Of a stretch of 21,768 nucleotides of DNA, positions 10,759-13,755 are shown one piece after another (within the stretch, counting starts at the first letter, position 1; each line of letters starts with the position of its first letter). The DNA is from a virus. The DNA lies in the IMG/VR virus record IMGVR_UViG_3300042518_001019, positions 1 through 21,768 of that record. One strand, given 5' to 3'. Position numbers and translations under genes: made by a program. The notes under the pieces are model-generated. The model had not been told where the DNA came from and did no database searches. It was given only the letters and a program-made list of their open reading frames with translations.

Positions 10759-11163
10759 TTGATTACGGACGACGAGCTAAATAAAATAATCGCCGCCCAC
10801 GGCTACGTTAGCAGCACGACGCCGCATTGGCCGGGCTGTTACCAGGTACACGCTGAATGCGCTGTGCGGTGGCTGGTGGCTACTGTGCGGGAATTGTCGC
10901 CGGTGGCGGCGAAACGGTTGAGCACGACGGCGGTTGCTGAAGAAACAAGAGAAAAAGAATTAGTTAAATTTATGGAATTGTTTTTGGAATTAATGCGAAT
11001 AACTATGAGCGACGCCTCAACGGCTTATTTAGAAGCTCATCGAATTATTAGAGATATTAAGGGCCTGCCGCCCGAAGATGTGATATTCCCGCCTCGACGC
11101 AAGAAAAAAGCCGCCGGCGACAAGCCGACTAAAATAGAACACGACGAAAAAGGGTTAATTTAA
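10759..11163 (+). CDS. Plus-strand protein, 134 residues (TTG start)
   Basis: The second gene on the plus strand. Start TTG at 10759 has AAAGGG nine bases before it; no ATG or GTG is nearby in frame. The N-terminal part (ITDDELNKIIAAHGYVSS and CYQVHAECAVRWLVATVREL) is helical, the middle is a charged helix (EETREKELVKFMELFLELMR), and the C-terminus is basic (PPRRKKKAAGDK). No family recognised. Its 3' end overlaps the GNAT gene by nine bases on the opposite strand. A role in lysogenic control or in host interference would fit the position, but this is inference. Confidence 0.6.
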   Translation: MITDDELNKIIAAHGYVSSTTPHWPGCYQVHAECAVRWLVATVRELSPVAAKRLSTTAVAEETREKELVKFMELFLELMRITMSDASTAYLEAHRIIRDIKGLPPEDVIFPPRRKKKAAGDKPTKIEHDEKGLI

Positions 11164-11610
11164 AACCATGTAGCGGGCTGGGCTGCCGTGGTAGTTGGCT
11201 TGGTAGGCTGTTTTAAATCCAAATTTTTCCCAAAAAATATGCGTGTTCATAACTGACGTTAAAGCCTTGGGTTTGCCTGCAATCTGTAACACTAATTGTG
11301 CCAGGGCTGTTCCGACGCCGTACCGTTGCCAGGCGGGCAAAATGCAAAGATCATGAATGTAATGGCACGCCGGCGGCGGTGCCGGTGTGTAGCACTGGTT
11401 CAACGGGTGCATTATGCCAAGGGTGAACGGGAATGAAATAACGTAGCCAATTAAGGCGCCGTCAATTTTAGCGGCGTAGCAACTGCCTGGGCTTGCAGTA
11501 ATTTTGGAATGAAAAGATTTATCGTCTTCAAAATATTGCACGGGGTAAGCCTGGGCGGCTATTTCCCCTATTGCAAAATAATGTTCTGGCTGAATTGGTT
11601 CAATTAACAC
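11155..11610 (-). CDS. GNAT-family N-acetyltransferase
   Basis: 151 residues with a GTG start at 11610 and AAGG upstream. The GNAT core is clear: YIHDLCILPAWQRYGVGTAL (about 84-103) contains the Q-R-Y-G-V-G acetyl-CoA loop, and HIFWEKFGFK (124-133) is the typical strand-helix signature near the C-terminus. It would acetylate a small molecule or protein. GNAT genes are occasional accessory genes in phages. The target cannot be told. It lies two bases after the winged-helix gene, probably co-transcribed. Confidence 0.85.
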   Translation of the reverse strand: MLIEPIQPEHYFAIGEIAAQAYPVQYFEDDKSFHSKITASPGSCYAAKIDGALIGYVISFPFTLGIMHPLNQCYTPAPPPACHYIHDLCILPAWQRYGVGTALAQLVLQIAGKPKALTSVMNTHIFWEKFGFKTAYQANYHGSPARYMVLN

Positions 11611-11612
11611 GA

Positions 11613-12086
11613 CTAGCGCCTTACCTCGTAGCCATCGGGGCCCGTGGCTATGGCCTTTCTATGGCCTAAATTTGCTAGTAATTCTTTAACAGTTGTGTCA
11701 TTGATAGGGTTTTCGTGCTCTTTAAAAAACTTTACAATTTGGGCCTGTTTTGCGGGCCCGTGCTCATGAAGATAATCAAGCAACCTTTGTTCTTTGGCGC
11801 TGTAAAACAGCGGCCTATTATCGTCTACCATAGCAATATCACCTCTGGGCAAAGGTGCGGGCGTAATTACCCGCATATTGTTATTAGCGTCTTTAGTTTC
11901 GTTATTAGGCCAATTTTGTGAAAAAATATCAGTAAATTCTTTTTTAATTTCCTCGGTAAGAATGGATACGATTAAGTTTCTTAACACGGGCGGGGCGTCC
12001 TTTCCTGGGAATGGCGGGTCACGAATAGTTAAGTGATTCGTGATGGTTTCAGTAAGCTTGGGGGATAGTAGCACACCTATTAACAC
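11613..12086 (-). CDS. Winged-helix protein next to attP (GTG start)
   Basis: 157 residues from GTG at 12086. The C-terminal third is a winged-helix-like fold: SAKEQRLLDYLHEHGPAKQA, then QIVKFFKEHENPINDTTVKE and LLANLGHRKAIATGPDGYEV (the last strand pair as wing). The N-terminal half contains a helix-rich region (LRNLIVSILTEEIKKEFTDI). It may be a regulator or an excisionase-like factor because it borders attP; its first codons overlap the left integrase arm repeat. Start choice is uncertain: the GTG has only a weak ribosome site (TAGGTG, itself part of the arm repeat). Confidence 0.6.
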   Translation of the reverse strand: MLIGVLLSPKLTETITNHLTIRDPPFPGKDAPPVLRNLIVSILTEEIKKEFTDIFSQNWPNNETKDANNNMRVITPAPLPRGDIAMVDDNRPLFYSAKEQRLLDYLHEHGPAKQAQIVKFFKEHENPINDTTVKELLANLGHRKAIATGPDGYEVRR

Positions 12087-12091
12087 ACCTA
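12070..12091. repeat. Left attP arm: two 10-bp repeats 12 bp apart
   Basis: AGCACACCTA (12070-12079) and AACACACCTA (12082-12091), spaced 12 bp start to start, in the same orientation as the right arm pair. They lie 33-55 bp from the tRNA-derived core and inside the first codons of the winged-helix gene. Confidence 0.7.
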
Positions 12092-12120
12092 AAGCATAAA
12101 ATTTTAATTTTTACCTGTGA

Positions 12121-13341
12121 TTATTGGATAGAGCAACGGTCTTCGGAACCGTAGGTTATAGGTTCGACTCCTATCGGGCGCATTTTTCTAGTGGTTTTTC
12201 TGCGGGTTTTTAAGGGTGGGGTATTTTCCCCTAGGTCTTTTTCTGATTGAGTAGCACACCTAAAAGCACACCTATTTAATTCATCTTCAAGGGCCCCTGC
12301 GGCGGCGTTTATGTCGTCGTTTTTAGCATGAGTATAGAAGTCCAACGTAAGCACGCTGGTGCTGTGGCGGGCTAATTTTTGAGTTATTTCTATGCGGAAC
12401 TTAGCGGCACACCATGTGATAAAAGTATGGCGCAAGCTGTGAAGGTCTAGGCGGTGGCTAGTAGTCACGCCGGCGGCGGCGGCGTCACGCCGTACCATAA
12501 CGGCGCTGCGGTCCCCCCACGTGCCTGGGAATAGCGGGCCGGCCAAAGTTGCTAATTCGGTTGAGAGCGCTGGGCCCAGGTCAATATCTGCCTGCTTGCG
12601 GTTTTTGGTTTCGCCGGCTAATAGGGTCAATCGGGATTGCTTTAAATGCGCTGGGGTAAGCGCCATTGCTTCCTTGCGTCTTATGCCGGTAGTTAGGATA
12701 AGCCGGTATAAAAGCGCTCGGCGATGGCCGCTTAAACCTCTAAACGTGGCCGGGCTGCTGGACGTCGTTGTTACCAGGGCGCTAGCTTGTTCAATGGTTA
12801 AAGCGCCTCTGTGGTAGGTTTTATTTGATCTAATTACGGGTAAGGTTATTCGGATAGCTGGCAGGCTAGCATGCCTTAAAAACTGATTTAGCGATTTTAA
12901 ATAATGGGCTTTTGTTTGTGCTGACCAACGTCGTTTCTCGGCGTCCCATTTTGTGAAAACACTGCGAACCTGTTCGGCGCTAATTGTTTTGCTTTGCAGT
13001 GCGCCGGCGGCGTCTAAAATACGCTTAACTTTTGCCACTACTTCCTTTTGGCGGGCCTTGGTAATGCCTGCAAGCGCCAGGGCTGCGGCCCAGTTGGCAA
13101 GATGGCCTGCAAGGGTTTTGGTTTTTGGCGTTTCGGTGCCGGCTATTATCCTGGCTAACATTGCGGCGGATTCGGGTTTAGTGGCGGCTAGTGGAATGGG
13201 GCGGCGGCTGCCTGGGAAAACATTGAAACCGTAGTAGATTTTTGACTTTTCGGTGCGTTTAGACGTCGCTTTCGCTGGGTGGCACTGTGCACCAAACTCG
13301 TCGTAATATCGTTCTCGTGACTGTCGTCGCATCGAAGCCAT
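12121..13341 (-). CDS. int: Tyrosine integrase with tRNA-derived C-terminus
   Basis: 406 residues. The catalytic set is present: Arg in LTTGIRRKEA (about 221), Lys around 246-249 (KNRKQADID), HSLRHTF (His301, Arg304), LARHS (His326) and the Tyr nucleophile in DFYTH (Tyr336). The N-terminal part (about 30-160) is a SAM-like core-binding domain (KSKIYYGFNVFPGSRR and a helical segment to residue 155). The final 19 codons (RPIGVEPITYGSEDRCSIQ) are the reverse complement of the tRNA-Arg fragment, so the reading frame ends within attP. It would insert phage DNA into the host tRNA-Arg. The 5' end overlaps the zinc-finger gene by 83 bp in another frame, an unusually long overlap. Confidence 0.93.
   Translation of the reverse strand: MASMRRQSRERYYDEFGAQCHPAKATSKRTEKSKIYYGFNVFPGSRRPIPLAATKPESAAMLARIIAGTETPKTKTLAGHLANWAAALALAGITKARQKEVVAKVKRILDAAGALQSKTISAEQVRSVFTKWDAEKRRWSAQTKAHYLKSLNQFLRHASLPAIRITLPVIRSNKTYHRGALTIEQASALVTTTSSSPATFRGLSGHRRALLYRLILTTGIRRKEAMALTPAHLKQSRLTLLAGETKNRKQADIDLGPALSTELATLAGPLFPGTWGDRSAVMVRRDAAAAGVTTSHRLDLHSLRHTFITWCAAKFRIEITQKLARHSTSVLTLDFYTHAKNDDINAAAGALEDELNRCAFRCATQSEKDLGENTPPLKTRRKTTRKMRPIGVEPITYGSEDRCSIQ
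12124..12182 (+). other. attP core: 3' part of tRNA-Arg(TCG) (not a functional tRNA)
   Basis: The plus strand carries the tRNA 3' portion: end of the D-arm (TGGATAGAG), anticodon stem ACGGT (12136-12140) pairing with ACCGT (12148-12152), loop CTTCGGA with anticodon TCG (12143-12145), T-arm ATAGG/CCTAT with loop TTCGACT, and acceptor CGGGCGC with discriminator A. The 5' acceptor and D-arm half are missing, so it is not a gene but the segment shared with a host tRNA-Arg. Site-specific recombination here would regenerate the host tRNA. Confidence 0.9.
12253..12274. repeat. Right attP arm: two identical 10-bp repeats 12 bp apart
   Basis: AGCACACCTA at 12253-12262 and at 12265-12274, the same unit and spacing as the left arm. 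They lie 71-92 bp beyond the core, inside the integrase gene, where they encode the residues RCAFRCA. Confidence 0.75.
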
Positions 13342-13606
13342 TAGCGTAAACTATTGGCCCCCTTGCGTCCTGCGGGTGCCAAAGTTCCTCCCTGTTTTCG
13401 TAGCGCTTACATAACACGTCTAATTTTTCCGGCGTGTTTGGGTGCGCTTTTGTAGGTTTTTGCGCCGGTGTTAAAGGTTCTAGCACGGCTTGATCGGGCA
13501 CGCAAGGGTAATTGCGCCAGTGGGTTTGGTAACATTTATCGCATAAATAGCGGCGGCGGGCAAAATTAACGCCGCAATGGCGGCACGTCGTTGTATCTTG
13601 GTTCAT
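13259..13606 (-). CDS. Zinc-finger protein overlapping integrase
   Basis: 115 residues from the ATG at 13606, with AGGA seven bases upstream and an ATGA overlap with the 50-residue gene; the 13627 start is less likely. Two C-x-x-C pairs are evident: CRHC (about 9-12) and CDKC (about 23-26), followed by a Pro/Lys stretch and a basic C-terminal half with VLCKRYENREELWH and TILRRVWCTVP. This looks like a DNA-binding or partner-binding zinc ribbon. It shares 83 bp with the integrase 5' end, and its C-terminal residues there are constrained by both frames. Possibly an excisionase or integration co-factor, but nothing proves it. Confidence 0.6.
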   Translation of the reverse strand: MNQDTTTCRHCGVNFARRRYLCDKCYQTHWRNYPCVPDQAVLEPLTPAQKPTKAHPNTPEKLDVLCKRYENREELWHPQDARGPIVYANGFDATTVTRTILRRVWCTVPPSESDV

Positions 13607-13755
13607 ACTAATCCTAAAAACATCCATAGAAGGGCGATAAGTTTACGCAAAATAGGGCGGTCTTGTGAGGCGCAATCACACGCTGAACTAGTCCAGTAAT
13701 ACGCTAAAACGGCGTTGCCGGCGGCCATGACGTAAATTAAAGCTCGGTCTGTCAT
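13603..13755 (-). CDS. Small hydrophobic protein, 50 residues
   Basis: The ATG at 13755 overlaps the holin-like gene's stop by ATGA and its TGA (13603-13605) overlaps the zinc-finger ATG, so it is coupled on both sides. Translation: MTDRALIYVMAAGNAVLAYY, then a short polar part with two Cys, then LRKLIALLWMFLGLV. Two hydrophobic segments of about 16 and 14 residues suggest a small membrane protein, such as an antiholin or holin partner. No family recognised. Confidence 0.55.
   Translation of the reverse strand: MTDRALIYVMAAGNAVLAYYWTSSACDCASQDRPILRKLIALLWMFLGLV

Follow-up and report, generated by a model that had tools for sequence, protein, structure and literature searches.

A phage attachment site within the integrase gene of an uncultured planctomycete phage and its predicted effect on the integrase C-terminus

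The attachment site (attP) of the Myxococcus phage Mx8 lies within intP, the gene encoding its tyrosine integrase (PMC4701971, PMC6070905). Integration exchanges a 112-residue C-terminus of the Mx8 integrase for one of 13 residues, which reportedly lowers the activity of the enzyme (PMC4701971; also PMC6070905, PMC4383910). The suicidal integrases of archaeal elements (SSV, pTN3, pT26-2) also have a translated att site, the sequence of which varies while the frame is kept, and in these elements integration splits the gene (PMC8371274).

The DNA analysed here, referred to as the window, comes from a freshwater phage of planctomycete bacteria and comprises 21,768 bases of a linear IMG/VR record (IMGVR_UViG_3300042518_001019). 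There is strong support for a complete attP of a tyrosine integrase in this record, with arm sites and in the unintegrated form. Like that of Mx8, the site is embedded in the coding sequence of int, and the integrase (Int) is predicted to have its C-terminus swapped upon integration. It differs from Mx8 in its tRNA-Arg(TCG) core and planctomycete host, and in that Int is predicted to gain 26 residues, whereas Mx8 Int loses a long tail. As in the archaeal suicidal integrases, the att site is itself translated, contributing to the integrase with its frame kept, but in those enzymes the catalytic domain is split from the N-terminal part, whereas in the window Int the catalytic domain would stay with the N-terminus at attL and the C-terminal end alone would change. 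The features of the locus are as follows.

11613 to 11987, minus strand: winged-helix (Penicillinase_R-like) gene, 124 amino acids, GTG/ATG start conserved
12070 to 12079, plus strand: P-arm repeat 1 (AGCACACCTA), offset -53 from the core, measured at CACACCTA, in five of five phages
12082 to 12091, plus strand: P-arm repeat 2 (AACACACCTA), offset -41 from the core in five of five phages
12121 to 12123, minus strand: int stop TAA of the phage form, at the core edge; TTG (Leu) in the predicted attL
12121 to 13341, minus strand: tyrosine integrase gene int, 406 amino acids, assigned from PHROG, a structure model and relatives
12125 to 12182, plus strand: attP core, the 58-nt 3' portion of tRNA-Arg(TCG), shared unchanged by five phages
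12253 to 12262, plus strand: P'-arm repeat 3 (AGCACACCTA), within the integrase ORF
12265 to 12274, plus strand: P'-arm repeat 4 (AGCACACCTA), within the integrase ORF

A first-pass annotation had described four repeats in two pairs, 12 bp apart and in one orientation, around a 3' fragment of tRNA-Arg(TCG), and both observations were confirmed. All four repeats are on the plus strand with a start-to-start spacing of 12 bp within each pair, and the paired motif (RCACACCTANNNRCACACCTA) occurs exactly twice in the window, at the two arms, while 100 dinucleotide shuffles did not produce it once. For CACACCTA the window has six occurrences against 0.47 expected. The arms had been called symmetric, which holds for their number and orientation but not for their distance from the core (33 bp on the left versus 70 bp on the right). 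The tRNA fragment is equal to the 3' part of an intact, ARAGORN-called tRNA in two planctomycete MAGs. The annotation gave it as 12124-12182; the core shared among the five phages is 12125-12182, and identity with the MAG tRNA (attB) spans 12123-12188. ARAGORN called no full tRNA in the window, as expected because the segment is a fragment, and blastn against phage records returned short tRNA-Arg-like matches only.

Close relatives of the window Int were found in IMG/VR (L002, 98% identity; L003, 82-83%; L004, 76%), and a search with the exact core added one more (L011, 73%). The identical 58-nt core and the paired repeats are present in all five phages, with one repeat copy in L004 mismatched at the final base of CACACCTA. 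Relative to the core start, the offsets of the left pair are exactly -53/-41 in each of them, and the spacer between core and left arm has diverged to 42-64% identity with the window in L003, L004 and L011 (ungapped); a constant position across a diverged spacer is the trace expected of a protein-DNA complex of fixed geometry. Outside the arms, the same three phages are 17-36% identical to the window (ungapped). For the right pair the offsets from the core end are either +72/+84 or +84/+96, which differ by exactly one unit of 12 bp, and the linker between right arm and core varies in length by multiples of 12 among the five phages. In none of the five does this linker contain a stop in the int frame, while the other frames nearly always have stops, and int is open to the tRNA in all of them.

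Among 84,980 species genomes the exact core was found in only two, which are planctomycete MAGs with an intact ARAGORN-called tRNA-Arg(TCG), and four more genomes of the family have this tRNA with one mismatch. The intact gene of the two MAGs is the predicted attB: the phage core is identical to the 3' end of the host tRNA, and the gene would be restored upon integration. The annotation had proposed finding a host with this tRNA and then its prophage junctions; the two MAGs supply the former. The genome collection and 95 genomes of the host family yielded no lysogen of the window phage or of any close relative, so that the use of this attB is inferred from sequence. A close integrase was likewise found neither in the genome collection (profile scan) nor in the 95 host-family genomes. 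One of the two MAGs with the exact core is titled Candidatus Kuenenia stuttgartiensis (L013, CAMDHK010000019.1) but shares its family with the other, a Planctomycetaceae MAG, and strongly resembles it around tRNA-Arg(TCG); the title of this record looks wrong.

Phage genes lie on both sides of the site, one flank holding int and phage structural genes and the other the winged-helix and RecT-like protein genes, and both flanks are syntenic in the four relatives. Host DNA on the low-coordinate side, an outcome that the annotation had allowed for, is very unlikely, and together with the intact target tRNA in the two MAGs this strongly supports its claim of an unintegrated phage form. The contig is extremely unlikely to be a prophage end (attL or attR) beside host DNA, or the inner junction of a tandem lysogen: such an inner junction would indeed resemble attP, but phage genes are syntenic on both sides, the window flank on the 5' side of the tRNA has no match to the MAG host, and all five contigs that carry the core are in the attP form.

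The left pair is located upstream of the winged-helix gene, as would be the case if the repeats were sites for the winged-helix protein, or a promoter operator, instead of Int arm sites. We consider this very unlikely, as the other pair is within int, across the core, and distant relatives with other repeat sequences keep the same 12-bp spacing on both sides of a tRNA core. Identification of the repeats as Int arm sites of an attP, as first proposed, is strongly supported by the same layout in four relatives and by arms at both ends of distant integrated elements. Both arms had also been placed in coding sequence. This is correct for the right arm, which is within int and translates as RCxxRC about 20 residues past the catalytic Tyr. 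The left arm is very likely intergenic, probably lying between the int stop and the winged-helix start, because the conserved start of the latter (GTG at 11987-11985) is preceded by a conserved Shine-Dalgarno-like sequence and has an equivalent in all relatives. The winged-helix ORF stays open back into the left arm in the window, and L003 has no winged-helix ORF spanning this arm; a longer ORF start, which would make the arm coding, was ruled out by conservation and the position of the Shine-Dalgarno-like sequence. An inverted repeat (CACGAAT...ATTCGTG) is found upstream of the winged-helix gene. Over window positions 11155-12120, int, winged-helix and GNAT genes are consecutive on one strand, and integration would separate int from the other two.

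The window Int is a tyrosine recombinase (phage integrase) with the R..HxxR..H residues and the nucleophile Tyr, and the motifs HSLRHT...ARHS...DFYTHA are kept in all its relatives. It matches a PHROG integrase (1.5e-25) and also the HP1 integrase, and its Pfam match is slightly under the curated cutoff (24.9 versus 27.1 bits). A weak AlphaFold model (mean pLDDT 56.8) has a b-b-b-a N-domain (predicted elements E3-13, E27-38, E49-51 and H56-66, partly of low confidence) together with core-binding and catalytic domains, and its neighbours by fold (PDB) or sequence include XerA, lambda Int, Tn1549 Int and HP1. In its predicted arm-type and core-type sites, domain order and fold neighbours the system is like the lambda, Tn1549 and HP1 integrases, in which the att core is not known to form part of the int coding sequence; the window site is grouped with Mx8 because it overlaps int. 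A small protein with paired CxxC motifs is encoded at 13259-13627 on the minus strand, overlapping the int start by 83 nt; its PHROG match, a weak one, is to a family of HNH endonucleases. Its equivalents overlap int in all five phages, and it is a possible Int partner or directionality factor.

The core itself is int coding sequence, a point absent from the first-pass annotation. The gene runs antisense through the tRNA core, its final residues (MRPIGVEPITYGSEDRCSIQ) being the antisense of the tRNA fragment, and its TAA stop sits at the edge of identity with attB; since int reads through the core and stops there, integration would rewrite the Int C-terminus. Anatomy, conservation and the integrase family suggest that the N-domain of Int binds the paired, 12-bp-spaced arms and that its core-binding and catalytic domains bind the tRNA-derived core. 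This core would recombine with the host tRNA-Arg(TCG) gene, both partner sites having been seen, and the host tRNA would stay intact because the phage supplies its 3' end. If integration occurs there, int would be fused to the antisense of the 5' half of the host tRNA and to upstream DNA, changing CSIQ* to CSIQLSYGR.... The prophage Int predicted by joining the 5' side of the MAG tRNA to the window core has 432 amino acids and ends in CSIQLSYGRLIVYYRAKVIIFKLNFPFPSK, compared with 406 amino acids ending in CSIQ for the phage form, and a natural example of such a tail (IGFEPITFGSVDRCSIQLSYGCVWD) is found in the distant integrase L052, which is integrated at tRNA-Arg(ACG). Int would thereby exist in two state-dependent forms, circular and integrated, as the two joined sequences predict. 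We regard the explanation as a whole, an attP of a temperate planctomycete phage that integrates into tRNA-Arg(TCG) and has a state-dependent Int C-terminus, as very likely.

The host family was represented by 72 non-redundant distant integrases from 38 genomes, and in 48 of these an antisense tRNA lies no more than 500 nt from the catalytic end. At 35 of the 48 loci int continues without a stop into the tRNA; the other two frames do so at 3 and 4 loci, and 4.3 would be expected from composition. Any of the three frames relative to the tRNA can be the one in use among these integrases, and it is therefore openness, not the tRNA-encoded peptide, that is kept. Exact 9-nt repeats occur at a spacing of 12 in 26 of the 48 loci and at a spacing of 11 in six, whereas other spacings are rare or absent. 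In most cases the first copy begins 154-167 nt before the tRNA, and the repeat sequence varies among elements while the spacing is constant. These results suggest that overlap of attP with int, with exchange of the C-terminus, is common in planctomycete mobile elements. They bear in both directions on the alternative of an ordinary attP, in which the overlap of int with the tRNA would follow passively from the packing of int against its site and the changed C-terminus would have no function: reading of the tRNA-derived segment in all three frames indicates that its amino-acid sequence is not itself selected, yet frames are open far above chance.

In complete genomes, attR carries a tRNA 3' fragment and an arm pair that matches attL in sequence and orientation, as seen for the GGCGTAGT arm pairs at both element ends in G081 and the GGGAGCAGCA-type repeats at both ends in G018. 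Beyond the attR arm is an orphan reading frame that ends in a conserved segment (consensus xDPDLAxVVxAWPxLPEPIRRAxLALV). This segment has no Pfam match and is called a helix here on the basis of its sequence pattern, not a solved structure; a single query recovered it from 54 of 95 family genomes, and a profile search across the phylum from 40 of 246 genomes. Rejoining attL and attR gave an open, in-frame ORF across attP in all nine pairs, eight of which gained the helix (script-tested: G018 twice, G012, G092, G053, G038, G095 and G035; four on one contig, the other four on separate contigs of one draft genome each). In the ninth pair (G081) the extra C-terminal segment differs but is similar in pattern. 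G016, which was not joined automatically and in which the helix is apparently partly deleted, is outside this count, and an unrelated pair used as a negative control (G038 Met int with Lys attR) did not join. The helix is absent from all 35 attL integrases that run into a tRNA. Uninterrupted ORFs comprising integrase, tRNA-derived segment and helix are present in L152, L160 and L163, each of them either an attP form or the inner junction between tandem copies, and two of the three have a matching attL form in the same genome. A scan of viral contigs revealed no free phage with the full-length helix form (L149 is an attR-like fragment and L150 is unrelated). As reconstructed from these sequences, the circular form of the related planctomycete elements carries the conserved helix and integration leaves it at the other end. 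Loss of the helix makes these elements a closer match to Mx8 than the window phage is. Orphan helix ORFs adjoin tRNA 3' fragments in L119, L120, L122-L125, L132, L135, L136, L143, L144 and others. An attL/attR pair at tRNA-Cys in G092 (C1, 2053148-2231629) is about 178 kb apart, and this element is either large or encloses other elements.

Restoration of the helix in frame beyond attP in eight of the eight pairs that have it speaks against a passive by-product, as does the precedent of Mx8, where altered activity is reported (PMC4701971). In the window phages, however, the conserved helix is absent and Int ends at or near the core edge, as a by-product would predict, and we give that alternative a real but somewhat less than even chance. 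The predicted Int change in these phages is an added host-encoded tail, since there is no helix to lose. We lean slightly towards a planctomycete integrase lineage with attP inside int, in which integration cuts off the helix, the window phages being a helix-less offshoot that gains host residues. Int would in this lineage report its own integration state, with the helix severed upon integration into a tRNA and left behind at the far end of the element. The two Int forms probably differ in activity, by analogy with Mx8, which would stabilise the integrated state.

The window site itself is a further member of a kind already known. For the spread of attP within int in Planctomycetota, and for the conserved helix there, no description was found in the searchable literature, which leaves most subscription journals outside. 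An uncultured phage group is now tied to planctomycete hosts and to a precise predicted insertion site. The orphan helix ORFs mark attR ends and could be used to map mobile elements in planctomycete genomes, and the element pairs provide many natural test cases for whether an integrase can sense integration via its own C-terminus.
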